From assembly GCA_034189135.1 (NCBI GenBank), contig JAXHVO010000081.1:1-64000 (forward strand): a stretch of 64,000 nucleotides of DNA, in the 5' to 3' direction. The stretch is from Thermodesulfobacteriota bacterium. GTDB lineage: Bacteria; Desulfobacterota; Desulfobacteria; Desulfobacterales; JAUWMJ01. Both the position numbers and the translations under genes were made by a program. Positions 2,126 through 38,005 of this stretch are shown here, one piece after another; within the stretch, counting starts at the first letter, position 1; each line of letters opens with the position of its first letter. The notes beneath the pieces are model-generated. The model saw only the letters and a list, made by a program, of their open reading frames with translations, was not told the origin of the DNA and ran no database searches.

Positions 2126-3442
2126 ATGATACATGCCAAACATAAAACCGGACTTGTTTTTTTCCCTGCATTTGACTGGGCGATAAGCCCTACCCATCCC
2201 GAGAGGGAGGAACGGCTTTTATATACGCAGGATCAAATATTTGAAGAAGGACTGTTTGACATTGAAGGGATCAGGGAATTTAAACCCGACCTGGTTACAG
2301 TGAAAGATGTGCAAAGAGTCCATTTTTGTGTCCCTGATGTATGGAATGTAATGACGGAGTCCCATTTTATTAGCGCCGGCGGTGCCAAAACCATCGGGAT
2401 GGCTGTATTGGACGGAAAGGTGGAAAAAGGATTTGCTCTTGTCCGACCACCCGGGCACCATGCAAGGCGCATTGTGCACGGGGCAAGGGGTTTTTGCAAT
2501 GTCAATATTGAAGCGATTATGATTGAATTCCTTCGGGAAGCATATCATATCGACAGGGTCGCTATAGTGGATACGGACTGCCATCATGGCGACGGGACCC
2601 AGGATATTTACTGGAATGATCCGGATACGCTCTTTATTTCCCTTCACCAGGACGGACGCACACTTTATCCGGGATCGGGGTTTCCCGATGAATTTGGCGG
2701 CTCGAACGCATTGGGAACCACCCTAAACATTCCCCTGCCGCCAAATACATCCGAAGAGGGATTTTTATACACCATAAAAAATGTAGTTAAGCCGGTTTTG
2801 GAAGACTTTAAACCGGATATTATTATCAATTCTGCAGGGCAGGACAATCATTATTCAGATCCTATCACCAATATGAACTTTTCCGCCCAGGGGTATGCCA
2901 CCTTGACTGAAATGTTAAAACCGGATATAGCCGTACTTGAAGGAGGATATTCTATAGAAGGAGCGCTTCCATATGTGAATCTGGGGATCATTTTAGCCAT
3001 GGCCGGAATCGATTACAGCAGGGTAAAAGAACCTGCCTATGACCCGGAAAGTATTCGGCAGACACCTCAGGTGACACAACTGATTGAGATCACAGGGCAG
3101 CTGGTTTTAAGCCAATGGAAACAGAGAGAGGCTGAAAGAGAAAAGATTATAGCATCAAAGGATTTTGATGAGACAAGCCGCAATGTTTTTTACGATACGG
3201 ACGGTATCCACGAAACCCAGAAAGAAAAGATTCGAATTTGTAAAAATTGCAGCGGAACTTATAAAATAGATTCGACTTCTGACCGCGGCAGTCACATCAT
3301 GGCAATTCATATTCCCCGAAAGGCCTGCAAGGAATGCAAAGCGCTAGGATACCGGTGGTATGATATGGCCGCTAAAGACAGCTTTGATATTGTTTTTCTT
3401 CGGGATAGAACTGAGGATGAATATCTGAGCAAGACTTTGTAA
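2126..3442 (+). CDS. Histone deacetylase-like amidohydrolase with C-terminal zinc ribbon
   Basis: 438 residues. Class I/II histone-deacetylase fold (AcuC/acetylpolyamine amidohydrolase superfamily), predicted to remove acyl groups from lysine side chains or small amines using zinc. Motifs are RPPGHH (107-112, catalytic His pair), DTDCHHGDGTQ (near 149, zinc Asp and His), GQDNH (near 239, zinc Asp) and LEGGY. After the catalytic domain, at about residues 370-405, two CxxC pairs (ICKNC and ACKEC) form a probable zinc ribbon, which is unusual for this family. The start abuts the structured repeat and has no clear Shine-Dalgarno sequence. A second HDAC-like protein is encoded at 33657-34607. The substrate is unknown. 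Confidence 0.85.
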   Translation: MIHAKHKTGLVFFPAFDWAISPTHPEREERLLYTQDQIFEEGLFDIEGIREFKPDLVTVKDVQRVHFCVPDVWNVMTESHFISAGGAKTIGMAVLDGKVEKGFALVRPPGHHARRIVHGARGFCNVNIEAIMIEFLREAYHIDRVAIVDTDCHHGDGTQDIYWNDPDTLFISLHQDGRTLYPGSGFPDEFGGSNALGTTLNIPLPPNTSEEGFLYTIKNVVKPVLEDFKPDIIINSAGQDNHYSDPITNMNFSAQGYATLTEMLKPDIAVLEGGYSIEGALPYVNLGIILAMAGIDYSRVKEPAYDPESIRQTPQVTQLIEITGQLVLSQWKQREAEREKIIASKDFDETSRNVFYDTDGIHETQKEKIRICKNCSGTYKIDSTSDRGSHIMAIHIPRKACKECKALGYRWYDMAAKDSFDIVFLRDRTEDEYLSKTL

Positions 3443-6681: not shown

Positions 6682-8235
6682 ATGACAAATCCACATGAAA
6701 AATTAGCCGAATCCCTTGAGAAACTGAAAAAGCTGCAAAACCAGGGTGTCGTCGCTGTGCGTTCAGGTGATCTGACCAGAACCCATCGGGAACGCCTGGT
6801 CAAAAACGGCTTCTTGAAAGAGGTCATGAAAGGTTGGTACATCCCTGCCCGCCCGGATGAGGCCGCGGGCGAGAGTACAGCATGGTACGCATCGTTCTGG
6901 GATTTCTGTGCAGCCTATTTGCAGAAGCGTTTTGGGAAGAAATGGAGTCTTTCTCCTGAGCAGTCACTATTGCTGCATGTCGGAAACATGACGGTTCCAC
7001 GCCAACTTCTTGTGCGCTCTCCGAAGGCCCGCAACAAAATTACAAGGTTGCCGCACGAAACTTCTTTATTTGATACGCGTGCGGCCCTGCCTGAAGTTGG
7101 ACAAATTGCAAAAAAGGAAGGCTTGCGTGTGTTCTCTTTGCCTGCGGGCCTTGTGAACTGTGGGCCAGAATTCTTCAGGCAGAACGCAACAGATGCACGT
7201 GCGGCTCTGGCCATGGTGCGCAACGCATCTGATGTGCTATCAATGCTCCTTGAAGGCGGACGTACCAAGGTTGCCGGCCGTCTCGCCGGCGCATTCCGAA
7301 ATATCGGACGTGACCGTATTGCCAGCGATATTGTCAAAACAATGCGAGCCGCAGACTTCGATATTCGAGAAAGTGATCCGTTCGAAAATACAATAAATCT
7401 TATCCTGCCGGTACGCGAACAGTCGCCTTATGTGAACCGTATTCGCCTAATGTGGCGTCAAATGCGAGAACCAATCCTCAAACAATTTCCGATCCCGCCG
7501 GGTTTGCCCTCAGACATCGATGCCTATCTTAAGACTGCAGATGACATTTACGTTACGGACGCTTATCACTCGTTGTCTATTGAAGGTTACCGGGCCAGCC
7601 CTGAGCTGATTGAACGAGTTCGCAGTGGCGAATGGAATCCGGATGAAAACAAGGATGACCACCAACACCGTAATGCTTTAGCCGCGCGCGGATACTGGCA
7701 GGCCTATCAGGCCGTCCGCAAAAGTATGCGCAGAGTAGTAGACGGCGATAATCCCGGCGAAGTTTGTGATAATGATCATAGTGACTGGTACCGTGAGATG
7801 TTTGGGCCGAGCGTAATGGCCGGCCTCTTGAAAGCAGTGGATCTTGCCGGCTACCGAAACGACCAGGTATATATACGCCGCTCAATGCATGTACCACCAC
7901 GTTATGAAGCTGTGCGGGACTGCATGCCTGCACTCTTTGATTTGCTGAGAGAAGAGTCAGAACCATCAGTGCGTGTTGTCCTGGGGCACTTCGTGTTCGT
8001 TTATATCCATCCATACATGGATGGCAATGGACGTATCGGTCGATTTCTTATGAACGTGATGCTCGCTGCGGGCGGGTACCCTTGGACCGTTGTCCCTATG
8101 GAAAAGCGAAACGACTATATGGCTGCGTTGGAAAGCGCGAGCGTAAAGCAAGACATCGTGCCGTTTGCACTGTTTCTTGGGAGCCTTGTTTCCGACAGCA
8201 TAGAAGAAAAACCAGCACCAAAGATACCTAATTGA
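6682..8235 (+). CDS. Fic family protein with AbiEi-like N-terminal half
   Basis: 517 residues. The C-terminal part holds the Fic catalytic motif HPYMDGNGRIGR (near 442-453), the signature of enzymes that transfer AMP (or other phosphoryl groups) to target-protein hydroxyls. An SLSIEG sequence near residue 295 fits the (S/T)xxxE(G/N) autoinhibitory motif, placed N-terminal to the catalytic site as in self-restrained Fic proteins. The first 60 residues resemble the winged helix of AbiEi-type antitoxins (GVVAVRSGDLTRTHRERLVK, then FLKEVMKGWYIP), and the region up to about 220 resembles the AbiEi body. This suggests a one-gene toxin/antitoxin-like fusion that binds the adjacent iterons. No separate antitoxin gene is nearby. 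Confidence 0.85.
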   Translation: MTNPHEKLAESLEKLKKLQNQGVVAVRSGDLTRTHRERLVKNGFLKEVMKGWYIPARPDEAAGESTAWYASFWDFCAAYLQKRFGKKWSLSPEQSLLLHVGNMTVPRQLLVRSPKARNKITRLPHETSLFDTRAALPEVGQIAKKEGLRVFSLPAGLVNCGPEFFRQNATDARAALAMVRNASDVLSMLLEGGRTKVAGRLAGAFRNIGRDRIASDIVKTMRAADFDIRESDPFENTINLILPVREQSPYVNRIRLMWRQMREPILKQFPIPPGLPSDIDAYLKTADDIYVTDAYHSLSIEGYRASPELIERVRSGEWNPDENKDDHQHRNALAARGYWQAYQAVRKSMRRVVDGDNPGEVCDNDHSDWYREMFGPSVMAGLLKAVDLAGYRNDQVYIRRSMHVPPRYEAVRDCMPALFDLLREESEPSVRVVLGHFVFVYIHPYMDGNGRIGRFLMNVMLAAGGYPWTVVPMEKRNDYMAALESASVKQDIVPFALFLGSLVSDSIEEKPAPKIPN

Positions 8236-12065: not shown

Positions 12066-14108
12066 TTATCCTATGACGCAAAGAATATCATTTTTAGCCA
12101 CCGAATCACCACTGGAGAAATTAATCGATTTTATGGTACCACTGGCGGGAGCGGACAAAGCGTTTTCCATCTTCATGGCTTCCAGTACCACCACGGTTTC
12201 TCCTTCACTGACGGCATCTCCAACCTCTTTTTCATATTTGACAATCATACCCGGCATGGGAGCAGGAAGCGGGGTTCCATCAGCAGCCGGGGCTGCTGCC
12301 GGTGCAGCTTCAGGCGCGGCCTCTTTAGCCGGTGCAGGTGCGGCAGGGGCAGAGGGTTTGGGAGGTGTCGGTGCTGCAGGAGCAGCAGGAGCTGACGGAG
12401 CAAACTGCACAGGAGCTGCCGCAGGCGCAGAGGCAGGCATCTGTTGCAGATAGCTTATCACCGGGGACTCGCCAATTTCATCAACACCAACCTCAAAATA
12501 ATCATCACCAACAAACACGTTGAATGTTCTCAGGTTTTCACCTTTTGGCGGAGCCTCTTTTCCCTGTTTTTCAACCAGCAACCCGGCCTTTGCCTTTTTA
12601 ATAAGTTCCTGCTCGGCCAGGGCTTCCTCAAGAGTTTTAGCTCTTACCTCTTCAGGCGGTTCTTCCTTGCCGTATTTCCATTTTAAAAACTTCTTTCCGG
12701 TAACCGGATAAATGGCATATAAAATCTCATCATCGAGGTCAACCGCAAGCCCTTTGACCTCTTCCTTTGCTTTATCAAGTTCAGGTTCCAGCACCTCTGC
12801 GGGTCTGCATGTAATCGGTTCTTCTCCTCTTTCATAACCTTTAAGAGCTTTCTTCTGAACTTCCGGATTTATGGGTACGGCAGTTTTTCCATACAGGCCG
12901 TAGCACAGGTCTTTAACCTGGCCGGTAACCATCTTGTATCGCTCTTTTTCATCATCAAAAAGAACGTTATTAACCGTCTGGATTCCGACAATCTGGCTGG
13001 TTGGAGTGACCAGCGGGACCTGACCTAGGTCCTTTCTCACCCTGGGCAGTTCGGCATAAACCTCATCAATTCTGTCAAGCGCATCCATCTCTCTGAGCTG
13101 ATTAACCAGATTTGAAAGCATTCCACCCGGTGTCTGATGGAGAAGAACATTTATATCAATAATAGACACTTTGGTATCATCCAGCAGATGCCGGTACTTG
13201 GGGAGTATTTCTTTTTCCAGGATCTCATTAATTTTGGCAAGGTGTCTGATGTCAAACCCGGTGTCCCTGTTCGTTCCCAATAGGGCCATCACCAAGGGCT
13301 CAATGGCTGGATGAGAAGTTCGGAATGCATAAGGTGACATGCATGTATCCACAATATCGACTCCGGCTTCAATCGCCTTTAAATGCGACATCTGTGCCAT
13401 GCCTGAAGTAAAGTGACTGTGAAGGTGGATGGGAACTTTAACGGCTTCTTTTAAAGCCTTTACAATTCTATAGGCATCATACGGTGCAATCAGGCCTGCC
13501 ATATCTTTAACGCAGACGCTGTCTGCCCCCATCTTTTCCAGGTCTTTGGCCTTGTTTACATAATAATCCAGGTTATAAACATCCCCTCCCAGCCTCGGTT
13601 CGGTCATTGAATAGCAGATACAGCCCTGGAAGTGCTTTCCGCATTCCTTAATGACCGGGACAACCGTTTCAAAATTTCTATAGTCGTTTAATGCATCAAA
13701 TGTACGAAAAATATCCATACCGTTTGCTGCTGCACGGTCCACAAATGCACGGGCGACATCGTCGGCATAGTTTCTATATCCCACCAGGTTCTGTGCCCGT
13801 AGTAGCATGGAAAAGGGGGTTTTTTTCATATAACGCTTCAATGTCCGGATCCTTTCCCACGGATCTTCATTTAAAAACCGGTGCATGGTATCAAAAGTGG
13901 CACCCCCCCATGTTTCAACCGCCCAGAACCCGACTTCGTCCATCAGCTCTGCAACCGGGATCATATCTTCAGTACGTCCTCTGGTGGCAAACAAGGACTG
14001 ATGGCCGTCACGCAAAGTTAAATCCTCAATCATAACAGGATTTTTTGCCTTAGGCCTGTCCTCGGCATAATTCATTTTTGTCATTTTTACTTGGTTTTGA
14101 TCACTCAT
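12066..14108 (-). CDS. Biotin-containing carboxyltransferase (transcarboxylase 5S/PycB/OadA type)
   Basis: 680 residues. The N-terminal HMGL-like barrel (LTLRDGHQSLFATRGR near residue 30) is the pyruvate/oxaloacetate carboxyltransferase domain. A conserved PYC/OADA domain follows (to about 515), then an Ala/Pro-rich linker (about 570-605) and a C-terminal biotinyl domain with EAMKMENAL, the biotin lysine lying near 645. GAGGAG precedes the ATG. Beside a 12S-type carboxyltransferase and the mutase/epimerase pair, the best reading is methylmalonyl-CoA:pyruvate (oxaloacetate) transcarboxylase, with 5S and biotin carrier fused. No membrane decarboxylase beta subunit is nearby, which argues against a sodium-pumping oxaloacetate decarboxylase. 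Pyruvate carboxylase subunit B remains an alternative. Confidence 0.88.
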   Translation of the reverse strand: MSDQNQVKMTKMNYAEDRPKAKNPVMIEDLTLRDGHQSLFATRGRTEDMIPVAELMDEVGFWAVETWGGATFDTMHRFLNEDPWERIRTLKRYMKKTPFSMLLRAQNLVGYRNYADDVARAFVDRAAANGMDIFRTFDALNDYRNFETVVPVIKECGKHFQGCICYSMTEPRLGGDVYNLDYYVNKAKDLEKMGADSVCVKDMAGLIAPYDAYRIVKALKEAVKVPIHLHSHFTSGMAQMSHLKAIEAGVDIVDTCMSPYAFRTSHPAIEPLVMALLGTNRDTGFDIRHLAKINEILEKEILPKYRHLLDDTKVSIIDINVLLHQTPGGMLSNLVNQLREMDALDRIDEVYAELPRVRKDLGQVPLVTPTSQIVGIQTVNNVLFDDEKERYKMVTGQVKDLCYGLYGKTAVPINPEVQKKALKGYERGEEPITCRPAEVLEPELDKAKEEVKGLAVDLDDEILYAIYPVTGKKFLKWKYGKEEPPEEVRAKTLEEALAEQELIKKAKAGLLVEKQGKEAPPKGENLRTFNVFVGDDYFEVGVDEIGESPVISYLQQMPASAPAAAPVQFAPSAPAAPAAPTPPKPSAPAAPAPAKEAAPEAAPAAAPAADGTPLPAPMPGMIVKYEKEVGDAVSEGETVVVLEAMKMENALSAPASGTIKSINFSSGDSVAKNDILCVIG

Positions 14109-22505: not shown

Positions 22506-24413
22506 CTATTTTCTTGCTTTTGCATATCCAATTCCGACAAGTGCGTCTTCCATTTCAGCTAAAGTTGCAGGATCGTCGATGGTTGCAGGCATTTTCCATT
22601 CTTTGTTGTCGGCGATACTCTGGATCGTACCCCTGAGAATTTTGCCGGAACGGGTTTTCGGTAGGCGCTTGGCGACTGTCGCCGTTTTGAATGAAGCCAC
22701 CGGACCGATTCGATCCCGCACCATCTGAACGACCTCCTTTAAGATGTCCTCATGGTTACGGGTGACACCGGCATTGAGTACAACAAAGCCAATCGGGACT
22801 TGTCCCTTGAGCTTGTCTTCAACACCCAAAACGGCACACTCGGCGACATCCGGATGGTCGGCCAGAACCTCTTCCATGGCGCCGGTGGAAAGGCGGTGTC
22901 CGGCCACATTAATAATATCGTCGGTGCGTGTCATCACAAAGACATAACCGTCCTCATCAATAAAACCTGCATCGGCGGTTTTATAATAGCCGGGGAATTC
23001 TTCCATATAGGCCTTCAGGAAGCCTTCATCGTTATTCCAGCAGGTGGGAAGCGTTCCCGGGGGCAGTGGCAGTTTGACAACCAGAGCACCGATATCACCC
23101 CGTTTGATCGGTTCTTTTGTTCCCGTATCGAGCACCTGCAGGTTCCACCCGGGGGCCGGCTTTGTGGGTGAACCTTCTTTTACCGGAAAGTGGTGAAGAC
23201 CAAGGCAGTTGGCGGCAATGGCCCAGCCGGTTTCAGTCTGCCACCAGTGATCGATGACCGGCACCTTTAGAGCATTTTCGGCCCATTTTAAAGTGTCGGG
23301 ATCCAGGCGTTCTCCAGCTAGGAAAAGGGCTTTAAAACAGGATAGATCATATTTTTTCATCATTTTTGCCTGAGGATCCTCGCGTTTAATGGCCCGAAAA
23401 GCGGTGGGGGCGGTGAACAGGCAGTTCACTTTATGCTCTGAAATGACGCGCCAGAAAACGCCGGCATCCGGTGTGCCCACAGGTTTGCCTTCGAATAGAA
23501 TCGTGGTGCAGCCTCTGAAAAGCGGACCGTAAATAATATATGAATGTCCCACCACCCAGCCTACATCGGAGGCGGCCCAGTAAACATCACCTTGGTCGAC
23601 ATTATAAATGTTTTTCATGGTCCACTTCAGGGCCACCACATGACCACCGTTATCACGGACCACCCCCTTGGGTACGCCGGTAGTGCCTGAAGTGTACAGA
23701 ATATAAAGTGGATCGGTGGCGGCCACCGGTACGCAATCATGGGGTCTGGCATCTGCCATGAGATTTGCCCAGTCATGGTCCCGACCTTCAATCATCCCGG
23801 CGGTTTCCATCGGCCGCTGGAGTATGATACATTTTTCCGGTTTTGATGACGACATGTCGATGGCGCCATCCAGTAACGGTTTATAGGGGATCACTTTTGC
23901 CACCTCGATACCGCAAGAGGCGGATACAATGACCTTGGGATTTGCATCATCAATGCGAACAGCCAGCTCTTTTGCTGCAAACCCTCCAAAAACCACTGAA
24001 TGAACAGCGCCAATACGGGCACAGGCCAGCATTGCAATTGCCGATTCTGCAATCATCGGCATATAAATAAGAACTCTGTCTCCTTTTCTTACTCCCAGTG
24101 AAGCAAGTACGCCTGCAAATTTAGCCACCTCGTCTCGTAGTTCATTATAAGTATATTTTTTTATCGTATTCGTAACCGGACTGTCATAGATTAGGGCATC
24201 CTGATCACCCAGTCCGTTTTCAATGTGAAAATCAAGAGCGTTGTAACAGGTATTGATTTCACCACCTGTAAACCAGCGGTAAAACGGTTTGTTGGAAGCA
24301 TCCAGAACCATGTCGGGTTTTTTATACCAGGCCACATTTTCCGCTGCTTCACCCCAGAAGCTATCCGGGTCGTTAATCGATTTTTCAAATGCCTCATTAT
24401 ACTGATTGGTCAT
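22506..24413 (-). CDS. prpE: Propionyl-CoA synthetase (acetyl-CoA synthetase family)
   Basis: 635 residues. Acyl-adenylate-forming enzyme making propionyl-CoA (or acetyl-CoA) from the acid, ATP and CoA. It is closer in pattern to PrpE/ACSS3 than to Acs: FYRWFTGGEINTCYNALDFH near the N-terminus, P-loop YTSGTTGVPKGVV, DHWWQTETGWAI, and the C-terminal PKTRSGKILRG with the catalytic lysine near 590 that protein acetyltransferases modify in relatives. The ATG at 24413 has a perfect AGGAGG at 7 nt. It is downstream of a symporter and the 28-residue peptide gene, and a sigma-54 promoter heads the unit. Propionate is the likely substrate given the methylmalonyl-CoA cluster nearby. Confidence 0.9.
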   Translation of the reverse strand: MTNQYNEAFEKSINDPDSFWGEAAENVAWYKKPDMVLDASNKPFYRWFTGGEINTCYNALDFHIENGLGDQDALIYDSPVTNTIKKYTYNELRDEVAKFAGVLASLGVRKGDRVLIYMPMIAESAIAMLACARIGAVHSVVFGGFAAKELAVRIDDANPKVIVSASCGIEVAKVIPYKPLLDGAIDMSSSKPEKCIILQRPMETAGMIEGRDHDWANLMADARPHDCVPVAATDPLYILYTSGTTGVPKGVVRDNGGHVVALKWTMKNIYNVDQGDVYWAASDVGWVVGHSYIIYGPLFRGCTTILFEGKPVGTPDAGVFWRVISEHKVNCLFTAPTAFRAIKREDPQAKMMKKYDLSCFKALFLAGERLDPDTLKWAENALKVPVIDHWWQTETGWAIAANCLGLHHFPVKEGSPTKPAPGWNLQVLDTGTKEPIKRGDIGALVVKLPLPPGTLPTCWNNDEGFLKAYMEEFPGYYKTADAGFIDEDGYVFVMTRTDDIINVAGHRLSTGAMEEVLADHPDVAECAVLGVEDKLKGQVPIGFVVLNAGVTRNHEDILKEVVQMVRDRIGPVASFKTATVAKRLPKTRSGKILRGTIQSIADNKEWKMPATIDDPATLAEMEDALVGIGYAKARK

Positions 24414-24543
24414 TTTCACGCCTCCTGTTCCAGATTCAATTTTTTTGGAAATAAGATCAAATTACCCTTGTTTTACTGTTTGATCTTAAAACCGGCCGGA
24501 AGAAGATCAACCCTTCCGGTCGATTAAGCTTCAAACATATTCT

Positions 24544-24630
24544 TTATCCCCATAGACCCCATCCAAACGACAGGGAAAACAGTATAGAAAAAACGAGCAG
24601 TATGATCATCCATAAATCTTCGCTTTTCAT
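24544..24630 (-). CDS. 28-residue single-helix membrane peptide (possible symporter accessory)
   Basis: A very short gene: ATG at 24630, TAA at 24546-24544, with AAGGAG 9 nt before the start. The peptide begins MKSEDLWM and continues as one hydrophobic helix (IILLVFSILFSLSFGWGL) ending in Trp-Gly. It lies 39 bp after the symporter stop codon and about 130 bp before prpE, all on one strand. Very small membrane peptides are known companions of some sodium symporters, so an accessory-subunit role is inferred from position. Presence of a strong ribosome site and perfect operon placement support it being real. Confidence 0.7.
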   Translation of the reverse strand: MKSEDLWMIILLVFSILFSLSFGWGLWG

Positions 24631-24669
24631 AATAAATATCTCCTTTTCGTTGAAAAAATATTGACCATT

Positions 24670-26436
24670 TTATCCCTGCACGACAGCCATTCGTTCGGTT
24701 TCGGCGCGTTCCATTTGTGTTACAGACGTGGTTGCCATTTCGGCTTTAAAGCAAAGTGCCCACATCATGACGATGGCATAAAACCACCAGACCAGCTGCC
24801 AGGACCATATTGGGGGAAACCCGCCAAATGAAAACGCCTTGTGGGCGAGCAGCGCTCCGGGGCCGATAGCAAAAAAGAACCAGACGGGCACACTAAACTT
24901 GCTCAAAGTACGCCACTTTTTGCCACTTTCAGTGGGGGCATCCACATCGTCCAGCCAGGTCCGCACTTCGTTCTGCCGCTTAATTGTCTCTTCGTCGTCT
25001 TTTACGCCAAACCCTCTGCATAAATAAGCAACAATAAGTCCGATACCTGTTCCCCATGCAGCCGGATGAATGGTCAGTATTTTGTAATTATAGGTAACAA
25101 TCACCGCGATCATTCCGGCTAATACGCCCAAAACAGCGCCAATCCGGGGAAACCTGAAACCCCAAAGTACACCCAGCTGAAGGATATACATCACTGCCCC
25201 GAAGGATGTGGCAAAAGCGCCGAGAATGACCAGCATGGATGATGACGTCAGCCCGACAACCAAAGCCAGAGCCGTAATAATTGTTGAAAATATCCGGTTT
25301 ACCCAGATCTGTTCGGCATCACTGGCCTGTTGTTTTCGGATATAGCGCCAGTAAACATCCCGCAATAAAATCGAGCCTCCGGTGCCGACATAGGGGGCAG
25401 CGGTGGAATGAATGGCAGAAATGGCTCCCATGAAAACAAGACCCAGAACAAAAGGTGGCAGAAACTTGCTCATCAGCATCGGTACCACCATATTGCTTTT
25501 AATGCCTACAAATCCTTCCACGCCCTGCAATTCAAGGATGCGGGCACCGAGACCCTGGAAAGCGGCAAAGAAAAAGAGAGAAAAACCGACCACGAACACT
25601 GTCATGAAAGCCTGCTGCCAGGCCAGCGGTTTGGGCGATTTAATTCCGAAATTCCACATAGTGAAAGCCGGAGAGGATTGGATTCCCATAAGAGCGAACA
25701 TGTAAGTGAGAATATAGATAGCGGTCCATTTGCGGTTCAGCTCAAAATGGATCAGGCCCGGAATCTCAAGATACTTGTTATCTAAATTATTGACCGCTGC
25801 CAGGAAACCGGACCATCCCCCGAACTGGGCGAGCACAAAGGCCCCCAGGGCAATGATGCCGGCAATCATCAGGACGAACTGGATCACGCCGACCCATGTA
25901 CTGGCCTTAAGGCCGCCGGCAGCCACATAGAACCAGACGATAAACGCCATGAACACGGCTCCTACCGTAAAAGGGACGCCGCAGACCACCTGAAAAAGTG
26001 CGGCCGAAGCCATCAGTTGTACCGCAGAGTAGAAAACGGAGTATAAAACGGCCGTTAACACGGTCAGCCAGCGCAGGGCTTCGCTGTTATAGTAGTATGC
26101 ATACATATCCCCGGGAGTCACAAAGCCATAACGTTTACCCATGAGCCAGTTGCGCTTGGCAAAAAAGGTGCCGGTCATTGGAATGATAACCACATAAAAT
26201 GAGCAAAAAGCATACACCAGCCCTGCGGCCCAGATAGCTCCCGGGTGACCGACAAATGTCCATCCGCTGAAAGACGCGGCTGTAGCAGCCATTAAAAAGG
26301 CCACAAACGGAATCGACCGGCCGGCAATGGCATAACCGGAAGAGGTTTTTTCGGAAAAATATCCCTTAAGACCCCAGTAAAAACAGTAAACGATATAAAT
26401 TCCCAGCATTATATAAACCCAAGTTGTTCCACTCAT
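24670..26436 (-). CDS. Sodium:solute symporter family (SSS) permease
   Basis: 588 residues with about 13 hydrophobic segments, typical of SSS transporters that co-import a solute with sodium. The N-terminus (WVYIMLGIYIVYCFYWGLKG) and the conserved ATAASFSGWTFVGHPGAIW fit the family. A cytoplasmic loop near 480-510 precedes the last helices. The start has AAAGGAGG 5 nt upstream. It is first in the unit symporter - small peptide - prpE. A short-chain acid such as propionate or acetate is the likely substrate by context. A consensus sigma-54 promoter lies 168 bp upstream of the start. Confidence 0.88.
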   Translation of the reverse strand: MSGTTWVYIMLGIYIVYCFYWGLKGYFSEKTSSGYAIAGRSIPFVAFLMAATAASFSGWTFVGHPGAIWAAGLVYAFCSFYVVIIPMTGTFFAKRNWLMGKRYGFVTPGDMYAYYYNSEALRWLTVLTAVLYSVFYSAVQLMASAALFQVVCGVPFTVGAVFMAFIVWFYVAAGGLKASTWVGVIQFVLMIAGIIALGAFVLAQFGGWSGFLAAVNNLDNKYLEIPGLIHFELNRKWTAIYILTYMFALMGIQSSPAFTMWNFGIKSPKPLAWQQAFMTVFVVGFSLFFFAAFQGLGARILELQGVEGFVGIKSNMVVPMLMSKFLPPFVLGLVFMGAISAIHSTAAPYVGTGGSILLRDVYWRYIRKQQASDAEQIWVNRIFSTIITALALVVGLTSSSMLVILGAFATSFGAVMYILQLGVLWGFRFPRIGAVLGVLAGMIAVIVTYNYKILTIHPAAWGTGIGLIVAYLCRGFGVKDDEETIKRQNEVRTWLDDVDAPTESGKKWRTLSKFSVPVWFFFAIGPGALLAHKAFSFGGFPPIWSWQLVWWFYAIVMMWALCFKAEMATTSVTQMERAETERMAVVQG

Positions 26437-26603
26437 TCTTTCCTCCTTTAAGCAGTAGTTTGGTTTTACCCTATCAATAGCAAAACGATAGCCGCCCCTG
26501 ACAGTGGTTTATGTTTGATCACCTCCTATCATATGAGTATTGATTTGGATGTCTGCGAAGTGTCGAATTTGAAGTAAAACTATCCGGAAACGCCATATTA
26601 GGT

Positions 26604-26618
26604 GCAACAGATGTGCCA
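26604..26618 (-). promoter_or_regulatory. Sigma-54 promoter of the symporter-prpE unit
   Basis: On the - strand the sequence is TGGCACATCTGTTGC: a perfect -24 (TGGCAC) and -12 (TTGC) with the invariant 5-nt spacing, followed by A as in the consensus. Transcription would start near 26592 and give a leader of about 155 nt to the symporter ATG. The adjacent gene encodes a sigma-54 activator. Confidence 0.85.
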
Positions 26619-26703
26619 GAAAAATTTAGTATGAGATGGGGAGCTTGGTCATACAACAGGAGGAAGAAAGTGGGCTTTTTTCCCAAAGGCAGGTTATTAT
26701 AAA

Positions 26704-26721
26704 TGGGACATTTGTGTCCCA
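26704..26721. promoter_or_regulatory. Candidate enhancer (activator-binding) dyad
   Basis: Perfect inverted repeat TGGGACATTTGTGTCCCA, centred about 120 bp upstream of the predicted sigma-54 start site, a normal distance for an activator enhancer. The half-site TGGGACA recurs at 26775-26781 and, beside the second sigma-54 promoter, at 28943-28949. Confidence 0.7.
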
Positions 26722-26800
26722 AAAATGAAAAAACTATTTGGTTATTACTTGAATATAATACAAAAAACTCTATATGGGACAATAAAGCCCTGATTTGGGT

Positions 26801-28780
26801 TTAGTTAATCCCGTATTGTTTAATTTTTCTAAATAGAGTCCTTCGGTTGACGCCTAATATGGAGGCAACTTTGGCCCGGCGCCATTGGTGCTCTCGCAAC
26901 AACCTTTCGATATAAATCTTTTCGAAATTTTTGGCTACCGAACGTAATTCCAGATTCCGGCTGTCTTTAAAAACCGTTGCCTCAGCTTCTGCTGCCGGAT
27001 CTTCAATACCTTCCTGGTTGATATCTAAAAAATCGACCTTTTTCAGAGTGACATAACGGTGAATCTTGTTTTGCAGTTCCCGAACGTTTCCCGGCCAATC
27101 ATATTTTTGCATCGCTGTCATAATTCTTTCCGGAATAGGGGGAATATTCTTGTTTTCTGCATATGTTTGCAGGAAATGGTGGATGAGCAACGGAATGTCT
27201 TTTTTGCGTTCTCTTAGCTGCGGAAGATAGATCGGGATAATATGAATCCGGTAATAAAAATCATCACGGAAGTCACCTTTCCGCACTCCTTCCTTTAAAT
27301 CACTGTTGGTCGCCGCAATAATCCGGAAATCCGGCTTCTTGATTTCCTGGCTTCCTATCGGCATATATCCGCCGCCATCAATCGCCCGCAGCAGTTTCAC
27401 CTGCATGTTTAAATTCAACTCACCCACTTCGTCCATAAAAAGGGTGCCGCCGTTGGCGCTATCCAAATAACCTGGTTTATCGGTATTGGCGCCGGTAAAA
27501 GCACCCTTTCTATAACCGAAAAATTCGCTTTCAATGAGATTATCCGGAATAGCTCCGCAATTGACGGTTACAAAATTCTTTCCGCCACGACCGCTTAAAT
27601 CATGAATCGTTTGGGCCACCAGCTCCTTGCCCGTTCCGGATTCACCGTAAATGATTACATTGGCACTGGAAGACGCTGCCTTGAGAATAGTTTCATAGAT
27701 ATTCTGCATGGCTTTACTTTTACCGATAATATTGCAAAAGTGATTGCTCCCTTTAAAAGTCGATCGGAGTCTTATGTTTTCCTCTCGTAAATGGGCCTCA
27801 CTTATCCGCAGCGCTTCTTCGTTGAGTTTTCGTTCGGTGATATCCACATGCGTTCCCACCATTCGAACCGGAATGTTCTTTTCGTCACGCTCAACCACTT
27901 TGCCCCTTGCCAGTATCCATCTCCAGGTGTCCTGTTTGGTTTTTAAACGGTATTCGACTTCAAAGGCGTCGATTTTCTTTTCCACATACCTGTTGAGCGT
28001 GCTGTCTGTATGATTCACATCTTCAGGGTGAATTAAATTCTTCCAGGTATCAAAACTTTGAGGCAGCTCGTTGGGCTGATAGCCCAACATGGTATAAAAA
28101 CAACGATTGAAATAAGCTTTGTTGGTGATCAGGTCCCAATCCCACAGTGCATCACTGGTGGCTTCCATGGCCAGATCGAGGCGTTTTTTACTTTGTCTCA
28201 GCGATTCTTCAATACGCTTGCGCTCATCAATTTCTTTTCTCAATCTCTGGTTTACCTCGGAAAGTTCAGAGGTTCGCTGCTTGACACGCTGTTCAAGCTC
28301 CTGATGGGCTTTTTCCAGGTCTTTCTTGGCCTGCCTGGCCTGGGTGACATCCCGGTGGATCACTATACTGGTTGTATGCTTCCCCTTCCGGTTCTGCAAG
28401 ATTGCTGTCCTGAGCTGGATTTCCAGGGTTTTTCCCTCTTTGGTTAGGCGCCGGGTTTCAAAAAGAACTTTCTTGCCCTCAAGCGTGCGCTTCCAGGCTT
28501 CCAGGGTTGCTTCCATCTCTTCCGGAGGAACAAAGTCGATCCGGTGACCCAACAACTCGTCCCGTTCCCATCCAAACACCCGAACGAATGCGTCGTTCAC
28601 ATAGGTCGCATTTCCTGCGGAATCGTAGACCACCACAGGGTCCGGAATGGCCCCCAGTAGAGCCCGGTAATGTTTTTCGTTTTCTTTCAGGGCAGCTTCA
28701 GCCTGTCGACGCAGGGCGGTTTCCCGCTCCAGCTCCCTGACCCGAATTTCGAGTTCTTTACAGGTGGGTGCCTTTTTCAT
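26801..28780 (-). CDS. PAS-containing sigma-54-dependent transcriptional activator
   Basis: 659 residues. Order: coiled coil (1-35), PAS domain (about 38-145), coiled coil (150-195), second PAS/PAC domain (about 198-315), AAA+ ATPase (about 340-570), Fis-type helix-turn-helix at the C-terminus (WRRAKVASILGVNRRTLFRK). The ATPase has Walker A GESGTGKELV near 380 and the sigma-54-contacting GAFTGA near 428. There is no receiver domain, so control is probably through ligand or redox sensing by the PAS domains. It is transcribed towards the symporter-prpE unit and most likely activates it. Its own promoter also matches sigma-54, suggesting autoregulation. Confidence 0.93.
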   Translation of the reverse strand: MKKAPTCKELEIRVRELERETALRRQAEAALKENEKHYRALLGAIPDPVVVYDSAGNATYVNDAFVRVFGWERDELLGHRIDFVPPEEMEATLEAWKRTLEGKKVLFETRRLTKEGKTLEIQLRTAILQNRKGKHTTSIVIHRDVTQARQAKKDLEKAHQELEQRVKQRTSELSEVNQRLRKEIDERKRIEESLRQSKKRLDLAMEATSDALWDWDLITNKAYFNRCFYTMLGYQPNELPQSFDTWKNLIHPEDVNHTDSTLNRYVEKKIDAFEVEYRLKTKQDTWRWILARGKVVERDEKNIPVRMVGTHVDITERKLNEEALRISEAHLREENIRLRSTFKGSNHFCNIIGKSKAMQNIYETILKAASSSANVIIYGESGTGKELVAQTIHDLSGRGGKNFVTVNCGAIPDNLIESEFFGYRKGAFTGANTDKPGYLDSANGGTLFMDEVGELNLNMQVKLLRAIDGGGYMPIGSQEIKKPDFRIIAATNSDLKEGVRKGDFRDDFYYRIHIIPIYLPQLRERKKDIPLLIHHFLQTYAENKNIPPIPERIMTAMQKYDWPGNVRELQNKIHRYVTLKKVDFLDINQEGIEDPAAEAEATVFKDSRNLELRSVAKNFEKIYIERLLREHQWRRAKVASILGVNRRTLFRKIKQYGIN

Positions 28781-29187
28781 GGTCTTGCCTTAAATTTTTG
28801 TCGGTTTTTGCGGTCCCTGTTTGTTGATGCGAATCAACTGGTTTTGGTCGGGCAGAGCGGTGACCATATGATACTATTATCAACCCAGGGCATTAATAAT
28901 CTGTTTATTTTAATTTAAAAAAAGCAATAACTGTGCCAAAAATGTCCCATTAAAATGGCAGGAGCAAAATCAACCCTATTTACTGAAAAATCGGTTACTC
29001 TAAATCAATCAGGTCAAGGAACCCCTCCTTATCGCCAGTGTCGGTAAGGAGGGTGAGCAAATTTCCCCTTCATATCTTTTGCGAATCAAATCTTAGCCAT
29101 CGGTCTGGAAAAATAGAACAGGACCTAAGCTTTTAGTTCAGCTCATTTTTTATAAAAAAGGCTCACCGAGAATTGCGGTTAGCCTTT
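28781..29187. other. 407-bp region between the activator gene and queA
   Basis: Holds the second sigma-54 promoter (28924-28938), a 9-bp hairpin CCCTCCTTA/TAAGGAGGG at 29023-29053 with no T run, and the queA terminator (29153-29190). No reading frame with coding character was seen. Confidence 0.55.
28924..28938 (-). promoter_or_regulatory. Sigma-54 promoter of the activator gene
   Basis: On the - strand the sequence is TGGCACAGTTATTGC, again a perfect -24/-12 pair with T following. The half-site TGGGACA (28943-28949 read on the - strand) sits 4 bp upstream of the -24 box. The predicted start near 28912 would give a leader of about 130 nt. Confidence 0.8.
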
Positions 29188-29190
29188 TTA
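29153..29190 (-). terminator. Rho-independent terminator after queA
   Basis: Stem AAAAAGGCT-x-ACCG / CGGT-x-AGCCTTTTT with a 7-nt loop, starting at the queA stop codon and followed by T-rich sequence on the - strand. The run of A on one side and T on the other would let it work in both directions. Confidence 0.8.
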
Positions 29191-30240
29191 CCCTAGATAC
29201 ATGGCATCTCCGTAGCTGTAAAACCGGTATTTGTTCTTTATTGCATCTTTATATGCACAAAGAACATTTTCTTTCCCTGCAAATGCGGATACAAGCATGA
29301 GAAGGGTAGATTTCGGCAAATGAAAATTGGTAATCATTGCATCGACCGCCTTGAAGGTATAGCCCGGATAAATAAAAAGGTTGCATGTGCCGTTGCCGGA
29401 TTGGACTGTGCCTTTTTTACCTGCAGCGAACTCAAGGGTACGCACACAGGTGGTTCCAACCGCAATAATACGACGGCCTTCTTTTTTTGCGTGATTTATT
29501 AAAGCTGCCGTTGGTTCAGGTATAAAAAATCGCTCGGAGTGCATCCGGTGATTTCTAATGTCAGACGATCTTACCGGTAAAAAGGTCCCATAGCCGACAT
29601 GGAGGGTAATTGCCGCAATCTCAACTCCTCTTGATTTTAGCTTTTCAAACAACGCTTTGGTAAAATGAAACCCGGCAGTCGGTGCTGCAATTGCCCCTTT
29701 TTCACAGGCATATACTGTCTGATAGGCTGTTTTGTCATTACATGGCGAAACTTTTTCTTTCCTTTTTATATAAGGAGGAAGCGGAATCTTCCCCATCTTG
29801 TATAACAGGCTTTCAAAGTTACCCCTGTAGTAGAACTTTAAAGAATGAACTCCGTTAAAAAAGCCGGTTACTTCTGCTTTCAAGTCATGGCCAAAAAAAA
29901 TAAAGGCGCCTGTTTTGGTTGGTTTTGACGCATTTATCAGGCATTCACTGGTAAATTTACCGGAGCCTTCTTTTCCTCCGGCATAATCTAAAATCAGAAC
30001 TTCCGCCTTGCCTCCCGTTTCCTTTTGGCCAAGCAGACGGCCTGGAATCACTTCGGTATTGTTTAAAATCAGGACGTCCCCTGGTAAGAGGAATTTATAG
30101 ATCTCGGAAAACTGATGGTGGGACAGATCCCCTGTATTTCGCTTTAAAAAAAGGAGTTTTGATCTATCCCTTTGCTTTACCGGTTGTTGTGCAATAAATT
30201 CCTCGGGAAGATCGTAGTTGTAGTCACTTAAAGAAAACAT
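29188..30240 (-). CDS. queA: S-adenosylmethionine:tRNA ribosyltransferase-isomerase
   Basis: 350 residues. Converts preQ1-modified tRNA to epoxyqueuosine using the ribosyl part of S-adenosylmethionine. It starts FSLSDYNYDLPEEFIAQQP, and has GDVLILNNTEVIPGRLLG, YQTVYACEKGAIAAPTAGFHF, ITLHVGYGTFLPV and the C-terminal MITNFHLPKSTLLMLVSAFAG (written here as overlapping family segments). The ATG at 30240 is preferred over a TTG at 30246. The DUF2065 gene ends 12 bp upstream. Queuosine partner Tgt is encoded about 8 kb away. Confidence 0.95.
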   Translation of the reverse strand: MFSLSDYNYDLPEEFIAQQPVKQRDRSKLLFLKRNTGDLSHHQFSEIYKFLLPGDVLILNNTEVIPGRLLGQKETGGKAEVLILDYAGGKEGSGKFTSECLINASKPTKTGAFIFFGHDLKAEVTGFFNGVHSLKFYYRGNFESLLYKMGKIPLPPYIKRKEKVSPCNDKTAYQTVYACEKGAIAAPTAGFHFTKALFEKLKSRGVEIAAITLHVGYGTFLPVRSSDIRNHRMHSERFFIPEPTAALINHAKKEGRRIIAVGTTCVRTLEFAAGKKGTVQSGNGTCNLFIYPGYTFKAVDAMITNFHLPKSTLLMLVSAFAGKENVLCAYKDAIKNKYRFYSYGDAMYLG

Positions 30241-33656: not shown

Positions 33657-34607
33657 ATGAAAAAAACAGGCTTCTTATTTGATCGAAGATATATGCTTCA
33701 TGAAACGAGTGATTATCATCCCGAAATACACCAAAGACTTGATGCGATTTATAAAGGGATAAATGATGCCGATCTTCTCCCCAAGCTTACCTTAATAAAT
33801 GGAAGCCGGGCAGACTTAAAATGGGTGGAAGCTGTTCACGATAAAGATTATATTAACAGTTTCCAGGATGCCTGTATGTCCGGGAAAAAAATATTCCGCC
33901 ATCCGGATAACCAGATGTGCTGCGAGACATTTGAGATAGCGCTGCTGGCTGTCGGTGGCATACTTGATGCTGTAGATCTGGTTATGAAAGACGAATTAGA
34001 CAATGCTTTCTGTGCCGTCCGTCCTCCGGGGCACCATGCAGAGAGATCTGAGGCCATGGGGTTTTGCTATTTCAACAACGTGGCGATTGCAGCAAGATAC
34101 CTTCAGTTACAATGGAAAATAACCAATGTGGGAATCGTTGATTTCGATGTTCATCATGGAAACGGCACACAACACATTTTCGAACAGGATCCCAGTGTAT
34201 TTTATTACTCTATCCATGAACATCCGTCATTCGCCTATCCCGGTACAGGCAGGGAATTTGAATACGGCTCAGGCCTGGGGTATGGCTTTACTAAAAATTC
34301 TCCGGTTCTTCCGGGCCAAGGGGATTCGGAATACAAAAAACTGATTAAAAAAGACCTGCTGGCTGATTTTGAAAAATTCAGACCGGAAATCATTCTTGTT
34401 TCGGTGGGCTTTGATGGCCATGTGGACGATGACATGTCCGGCATTAAGCTTTCAACCGAATGGTATTCGTGGGTCATGCAAAAAATTCTGGAAATGTCTG
34501 ACAAATACTCAAACGGAAGGCTTATTACCATACTTGAAGGAGGATATTCGCTCAAACGCCTTCCTGAGCTTGCCAAGAATCATGTTAGTATTTTGTTGGA
34601 TGGCTGA
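33657..34607 (+). CDS. Histone deacetylase family protein (AcuC-like)
   Basis: 316 residues. Zinc amidohydrolase of the deacetylase superfamily. Motifs are RPPGHHAERSEAMGFCYFNN (from 122), VDFDVHHGNGTQHIF (from 161, zinc Asp/His), VSVGFDGHVDDDM (near 249, zinc Asp) and ILEGGYSLKRL (near 296, catalytic Tyr). It is followed about 100 bp later by a CBS-CBS-ACT protein, the same pairing as acuC-acuB in Bacillus subtilis, where AcuC deacetylates acetyl-CoA synthetase. That makes acyl-CoA synthetases such as PrpE plausible targets. Acetylpolyamine hydrolase activity cannot be excluded. Confidence 0.85.
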   Translation: MKKTGFLFDRRYMLHETSDYHPEIHQRLDAIYKGINDADLLPKLTLINGSRADLKWVEAVHDKDYINSFQDACMSGKKIFRHPDNQMCCETFEIALLAVGGILDAVDLVMKDELDNAFCAVRPPGHHAERSEAMGFCYFNNVAIAARYLQLQWKITNVGIVDFDVHHGNGTQHIFEQDPSVFYYSIHEHPSFAYPGTGREFEYGSGLGYGFTKNSPVLPGQGDSEYKKLIKKDLLADFEKFRPEIILVSVGFDGHVDDDMSGIKLSTEWYSWVMQKILEMSDKYSNGRLITILEGGYSLKRLPELAKNHVSILLDG

Positions 34608-37255: not shown

Positions 37256-38005
37256 ATGGATGACCTGATAAAACGAGCAGCCAAAGATCTCGCTTCAGCA
37301 AAAAATGTGGTCGCCTTAACGGGTGCGGGTATTTCTGTAGAAAGCGGAATTCCACCTTTCAGGGGAAAAGGCGGGATATGGGAAAAATTCGATCCCATGG
37401 AATTTGCTCATATCGATGAGTTTATGAAGGATCCTGCAAGAGTATGGAATGTACTTATTAAGGAAATGAAGGATATCGTTGACACGGCAAAACCAAATGA
37501 TGGTCATTATGGCCTGGCTAAGCTGGAGCAAAAGGGAATCTTAAAAACGGTTATTACGCAGAATGTTGACGGACTTCACCAGAAGGCAGGGAATACAGAT
37601 GTAATTGAATTTCATGGAAATTTTGCATGGCAGAAATGCATGACCTGTGATAAGCGAGTGGAAACTATCCGGGTAAATATGTCGCAAATACCCCCACGGT
37701 GTGAGTGCGGAGGTATTTTAAGGCCCGAATGCATTTTTTATGGCGAGATGATTCCAACAAATCACCTGCTACGTTCCAGGCTGGTGTCCTCCCGGTGTGA
37801 TATCATGCTGGTAGTGGGAACTTCAGCAGTGGTACAACCTGCATCCTTTATGCCGGTTATGGCAAAACAATCAGATGCCAAAGTGATAGAAATCAATCCG
37901 GAAAAAACCCCTCTGACAGGTGATATCAGCGACTACCTTATCATGGGAAAAGCAGGACCTGTAATGAAACAAATCATAGAAGAACTTGAGGTACTCCTTG
38001 TTTAA
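37256..38005 (+). CDS. cobB: Sir2-family NAD-dependent protein deacylase
   Basis: 249 residues. Sirtuin that removes acyl groups from lysine with NAD. Motifs are ALTGAGISVESGIPPFRG (NAD site, from 20), TQNVDGLHQKAG (near 101), the catalytic His in EFHGN (near 120), zinc cysteines CMTC and CEC, VVGTSAVVQPA and the C-terminal EINPEKTPL. In other bacteria CobB reactivates Acs and PrpE by deacylation, and both an acyl-CoA synthetase and two HDAC-like enzymes occur in this window. It probably ends the + strand run that begins with the CooC-like gene, though a 133-bp gap separates it from the MBL gene. Confidence 0.92.
   Translation: MDDLIKRAAKDLASAKNVVALTGAGISVESGIPPFRGKGGIWEKFDPMEFAHIDEFMKDPARVWNVLIKEMKDIVDTAKPNDGHYGLAKLEQKGILKTVITQNVDGLHQKAGNTDVIEFHGNFAWQKCMTCDKRVETIRVNMSQIPPRCECGGILRPECIFYGEMIPTNHLLRSRLVSSRCDIMLVVGTSAVVQPASFMPVMAKQSDAKVIEINPEKTPLTGDISDYLIMGKAGPVMKQIIEELEVLLV

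Follow-up and report, generated by a model that had tools for sequence, protein, structure and literature searches.

An enhancer-binding protein gene followed by paired dyads and a sigma-54 promoter at conserved spacing in Desulfobacterota, with a symporter and an acyl-CoA synthetase gene as predicted targets

Introduction

Which genes does the sigma-54 activator encoded at this locus control, through which DNA sites, and does it control its own gene as well? The initial annotation of the window (the whole 64 kb stretch of DNA analysed here) noted two perfect sigma-54 promoters and a shared TGGGACA element around the regulator gene, and proposed that the regulator activates both propionate uptake and activation and its own gene. 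Activators that adjoin a single target and act through several upstream sites are familiar from the Desulfovibrionales (Kazakov et al. 2015, PMC4641369) and the Clostridiales (PMC6615313). In the passages of these papers on such regulons the regulator likewise adjoins its target, several activator sites (UAS) precede the sigma-54 promoter and mostly one or a few operons are controlled. Among the one-component enhancer-binding protein genes discussed in those passages, however, DVU0569 alone is stated to have a sigma-54 promoter downstream of its own gene.

Results

The regulator and the elements around it

The features of the locus, all on the minus strand, are as follows.

22506..24419, minus strand: acyl-CoA synthetase gene, PrpE-leaning according to NCBIfam; second predicted target
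24670..26436, minus strand: sodium:solute symporter family transporter gene (Pfam SSF); predicted target
26604..26618, minus strand: predicted symporter sigma-54 promoter, TGGCACATCTGTTGC, a perfect TGGCAC-N5-TTGC
26704..26721, minus strand: putative proximal activator site UAS2, TGGGACACAAATGTCCCA, a perfect dyad TGGGACA-N4-TGTCCCA
26775..26792, minus strand: putative distal activator site UAS1, CAGGGCTTTATTGTCCCA, a degenerate dyad recognised by the position, spacing and half-site that it has in common with relatives
26801..28780, minus strand: regulator gene, 659 aa (Pfam matches and translation)
28924..28938, minus strand: second perfect sigma-54 promoter match, TGGCACAGTTATTGC, 158 bp upstream of the regulator ATG
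28943..28949, minus strand: half-site TGGGACA, abutting the second promoter on the upstream side of its -24 element

According to the Pfam scan, the regulator consists of two PAS domains, a sigma-54-interacting AAA+ domain (Sigma54_activat PF00158, 218 bits) and a Fis-type helix-turn-helix (HTH_8, 45.6 bits, residues 618-656); the translation contains the GAFTGA loop of the AAA+ domain and gives NRRTLFRK as the recognition helix. Together with a -24/-12 target promoter and the presence of rpoN in the genome, these features characterise a sigma-54 enhancer-binding protein. Pfam detected no N-terminal receiver domain, which sets the protein apart from NtrC-type response regulators, and no histidine kinase gene adjoins it. 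PrpR is also a sigma-54 activator linked to a propionyl-CoA synthetase, but the Pfam scan found no PrpR_N sensor domain in the window protein, and the full-length PrpR model TIGR02329 reached 267.9 bits, below its cut-off of 499.2.

The coordinates of both promoters, as well as those of the perfect dyad and of the half-site adjoining the second promoter, agreed with the initial annotation. Within the 64 kb window there are just two perfect matches to TGGCAC-N5-TTGC, each on the minus strand. In the whole 4.6 Mb genome TGGCAY-N5-TTGC was found 64 times, versus 9 for the reversed control pattern, and there is one copy of rpoN; most of the perfect matches are therefore probably real promoters, the second promoter of the window probably included. 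A search of 24300-29400 against Rfam gave no RNA family.

Downstream of the regulator gene, whose stop codon is at 26803-26801, UAS1 begins 11 bases beyond that codon's first base and lies 71 bp upstream of UAS2, and the symporter promoter follows 85 bp downstream of UAS2. Only one half-site of UAS1 is intact. The initial annotation had reported a single upstream site, the perfect dyad; the degenerate second copy at 26775-26792 had been overlooked.

The layout is conserved in relatives

Homologs of the regulator were gathered from the order and the phylum, and the sequence following each stop codon was inspected. In the first set, from the order, 42 of 71 homologs have a sigma-54 promoter in sense orientation 160-199 bp past the stop codon; in a larger set 56 of 132 do (51/110 from the order and 5/22 from the phylum), where about 0.13 would be expected by chance given a background rate measured at 0.025 per kb per strand. 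More distant homologs, collected in a later batch, had it in 6 of 36 cases (chance, about 0.04). A search for paired dyads that was blind to TGGGACA placed 31 of 58 cassettes above the 99th percentile of shuffled sequence, and the two dyads of a pair were most often 69-71 bp apart; lesser clusters had spacings near 81 bp and 91-94 bp. Scanning of genome contigs gave four close relatives, including Candidatus Desulfatibia vada and Desulfobacteraceae Eth-SRB2.

The layout common to relatives across the order is, in sequence, the stop codon, about 10 bp, site 1, 69-71 bp, site 2, about 87 bp, the sigma-54 promoter and the target gene. In each of the 17 cassettes whose regulators have the same helix as that of the window (class A), site 1 started 11-14 bases beyond the first stop-codon base; the distance between the two sites was 69-71 bp in 15 of them, and site 2 was separated from the -24 element by 85-90 bp in 13. 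Position 4 of the half-site was G in all 68 half-sites counted and position 3 was G or A in 64 of them, giving the consensus TGRGACA. The order and spacing of stop codon, sites and promoter is the important feature; this geometry is kept across the Desulfobacterota relatives while the motif, the sensor domains and the target genes vary.

The dyad changes with the recognition helix

Comparison of the cassettes revealed that helices of the form [DNS]RRTLFRK go with the dyad TGRGACA, [DN]RKTLF[RK]K with TGGGGC, HRKTLFTK with TGTGGC, and PxRT[FL][FY]RK with TGCCA-N4-TGGCA. The helix class predicted the dyad class in 43 of 44 cassettes, and shuffles reached at most 28 (0 of 20000 as good), although the shuffles ignore the kinship of the cassettes and independent origins are the stronger argument. 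In a tree built from the AAA+ domain plus the helix, the lysine variant RKTLF[RK]K evolved independently three or more times, and in every instance GGGGC or GGGGT replaces GGGAC, with G for A at position 5. The helix classes were defined after many sites had been seen, which keeps the comparison from being a clean test, and fully held-out cases are few; of the later cases, L210, L229 and L232 fitted the rule, and L258, L259 and L276 did so broadly. SRKTL helices with GGGAC and DRRTLLRK with GGGGC are exceptions, and the rule is therefore not general.

Both kinds of helix were found within one genome, in G289 (L045, L047) and in G213 (L046, L048), in regulators whose aligned portion shares about 70% identity with the window protein. 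Paralogous cassettes of these genomes (L046, L048 and L229 in G213; L045 and L047 in G289) differ in both dyad and helix class, which argues that each set of sites is read by the neighbouring regulator and that the duplicated cassettes are insulated from one another. Since the letters of the dyad change with the recognition helix, the dyads are very probably binding sites of the adjoining regulator itself.

Two other readings of the dyads were weighed against this one. Both dyads come after the stop codon and the perfect one was scored as a terminator-like hairpin, so they might be RNA hairpins that end the regulator transcript. Among 36 class A sites, however, only 8 pair fully and 8 have a T-run, whereas 30 have an intact TGRGACA half-site; moreover, two copies at a fixed 70 bp and a change in step with the recognition helix are unexpected of terminators. 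We rejected the hairpin reading on the small numbers with full pairing or a T-run, and regard it as very improbable. That an activator other than the neighbouring regulator binds the dyads is slightly less remote, yet still improbable: about 33 further AAA+ activators are encoded in the same genome and certain enhancer-binding proteins have targets far from their own genes, but in relatives the sites travel with the regulator gene and change with its helix, and among the roughly 30 activators of the genome that were scanned none has a similar helix, RRTLFRK being unique to the window regulator.

The dyad in the rest of the genome

The initial annotation had envisaged a regulon definable by scanning for the dyad. 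Pattern searches of the whole genome yielded no such regulon of exact sites, because the perfect dyad of 26704-26721 occurs once. With two mismatches allowed, 13 places were found versus 19 for the control, indicating that the loose pattern is at chance level, and the half-site TGGGACA alone is also at chance (12 in the window versus 8.9 expected).

A search for TGRGACA-N4-TGTCYCA with at most one mismatch gave two more genomic places, both on contig C56 and near sigma-54 promoters. This locus (L178) contains two TGAGACA-N4-TGTCTCA dyads, at 7473-7490 and 13365-13382, which adjoin the promoters of a gene for a 119-aa protein and of a histone-deacetylase-family (AcuC-like) gene. They share extended flanking sequence and form no 70 bp pair, so a different regulator is possible; the two dyads may be further targets either of the window regulator or of another one.

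Predicted target genes

The presumed targets were compared with those of the relatives. In L050 the symporter has an orthologue, 71% identical, in the same place, and orthologues of the synthetase (77-81% identical) adjoin the cassette in L050, L052, L055, L057 and L058. In the clade of the window regulator (22 members), most cassettes are followed by an SSS or a SatP/YaaH transporter, and in several the next gene encodes a close relative of the window acyl-CoA synthetase. Other targets in the clade are a gene for a small ABM-domain protein near methylmalonyl-CoA pathway genes (L044, L047-L049), an operon that by eye resembles a 2-oxoacid oxidoreductase (L045, L046) and whose first gene gave no Pfam hit, and an MFS-like transporter (L032, L039). 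The four closest relatives (69-74% identical) belong to a clade, family f21, whose cassettes control different genes. In L030, L036, L038 and L082, where the helix is of the PERTLYRK class, the target is a small protein that resembles, by eye, a lone receiver domain.

The proposal that the regulator activates propionate uptake and activation holds in its first part: conserved spacing, the link between helix and motif, and the transporter and acyl-CoA synthetase targets conserved in most of the clade suggest that it very probably activates the symporter and acyl-CoA synthetase genes through the dyad. Propionate as the substrate is plausible. The synthetase scored 776 bits with PrpE and 644 with AcsA in NCBIfam, both under the curated cut-offs (for PrpE, 721.9 against 827.4 with TIGR02316 and 776 against 955 with NF007815). 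Acetate uptake and activation is the other candidate pathway, and we consider it a serious, if somewhat less favoured, possibility: many relatives pair the cassette with a transporter of the SatP/YaaH (acetate/succinate) family and with a 77-81% identical synthetase, but PrpE is the best-scoring model for the window synthetase, and further downstream on the same strand lie genes that, judged by eye from translations, resemble those of the methylmalonyl-CoA pathway.

Pfam assigns two genes elsewhere in the window to the histone-deacetylase family, and a third looks sirtuin-like by eye (2126-3442, 33657-34607 and 37256-38005). Deacylases of the histone-deacetylase and sirtuin families regulate acyl-CoA synthetases in other bacteria.

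The second promoter and control of the regulator gene

Activation of the regulator gene by its own product, the other part of the original proposal, was not supported: the half-site touches the -24 element, a partner site is missing from the usual distance, and nothing similar was seen in about 40 relatives. In these relatives, for each of which 400 bp or more of upstream sequence was available, neither a sigma-54 promoter nor a dyad was found upstream of the regulator gene. A protein bound at the half-site would be more apt to obstruct RNA polymerase than to activate it.

Control of the gene through 28943-28949 in either sense, activating or repressing, is in our estimate unlikely. In its favour are the perfect half-site near a perfect sigma-54 promoter, a coincidence within about 30 bp of a given promoter that is an event of about 1% at the rate of the window (computed post hoc), and the fact that the half-site and the -24 element together read as a dyad with two mismatches, TGGGACA-TTTT-TGGCACA. 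The second half of that dyad is, however, the -24 element itself, so that binding would compete with sigma-54, which is the geometry of a repressor; no pair of sites is present at the usual -85 to -175, no such arrangement occurs in the relatives, and half-sites as such are at chance frequency. The half-site may therefore be a chance match or a repressor-like site, and self-repression of the 28924-28938 promoter is possible.

The inverted repeat CCCTCCTTACCG-N7-CGATAAGGAGGG at 29023-29053, unique in the genome, precedes the second promoter, 85 bp ahead of its -24 element; this is also the distance of site 2 from the symporter promoter. The repeat may be the site of another activator.

Discussion

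The explanation that we favour, and hold as a whole to be highly probable, is that the regulator is a one-component sigma-54 enhancer-binding protein acting on the genes downstream of its own. Its Fis-type domain would bind as dimers to the two dyads of the TGRGACA-N4-TGTCYCA type, 71 bp apart and just downstream of the regulator gene. The bound protein would then assemble an ATPase ring, and its AAA+ domain would contact and remodel the sigma-54 RNA polymerase waiting at 26604-26618, upon which the symporter gene, and probably in the same transcript the acyl-CoA synthetase gene, would be expressed for a short-chain acid (propionate or acetate). The N-terminal PAS domains presumably sense the inducing signal. 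Several points weigh against this explanation: one half of UAS1 is degenerate, no other promoter of the genome has an exact copy of the dyad, the helix classes were drawn up with many sites already in view, some helices depart from the simple rule, and the clade of the four closest relatives has other targets.

The nearest likeness is the system of L050 and its relatives, which has the same cassette, the same type of dyad or its G variant, and a transporter and an acyl-CoA synthetase as targets. There, the regulators are of the REC-PAS-AAA+-Fis type (L050, L052, L055, L058), and a gene for a Cache-domain histidine kinase lies just upstream in L050, with similar-looking genes preceding L052, L055 and L058. 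In contrast, the window protein has two PAS domains and neither a receiver domain nor a neighbouring kinase, suggesting that the output side of the cassette was retained while the input switched from a two-component system to PAS domains only. Literature searches on the motif, on the recognition helix and on sigma-54 regulators of acetate or propionate genes in sulfate reducers yielded no match to the window system. The fixed geometry of stop codon, site pair and promoter is not described in the passages of PMC4641369 and PMC6615313 cited above, nor was it found in the small open-access sample of the literature covered.

The window case joins the known adjacent-activator systems with an unusually regular layout, and it ties, as predicted from sequence, a regulator to the way in which uncultured sulfate reducers take up and activate a key fermentation product. 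The cassette rule is the part worth following. According to this rule, the target and the binding site of many uncharacterised activators may be found about 185 bp past their stop codons. With evenly balanced confidence, we propose further that this class of activators in Desulfobacterota is a self-contained travelling cassette that duplicates as a unit and is re-aimed at new operons, with cross-talk prevented by coupled substitutions, one in the recognition helix and one in the dyad, and with a Fis-type code that would be readable from genomes. The pairs L045/L047 of G289 and L046/L048 of G213, in which one helix residue and one dyad base differ, would make this DNA-recognition code directly testable.
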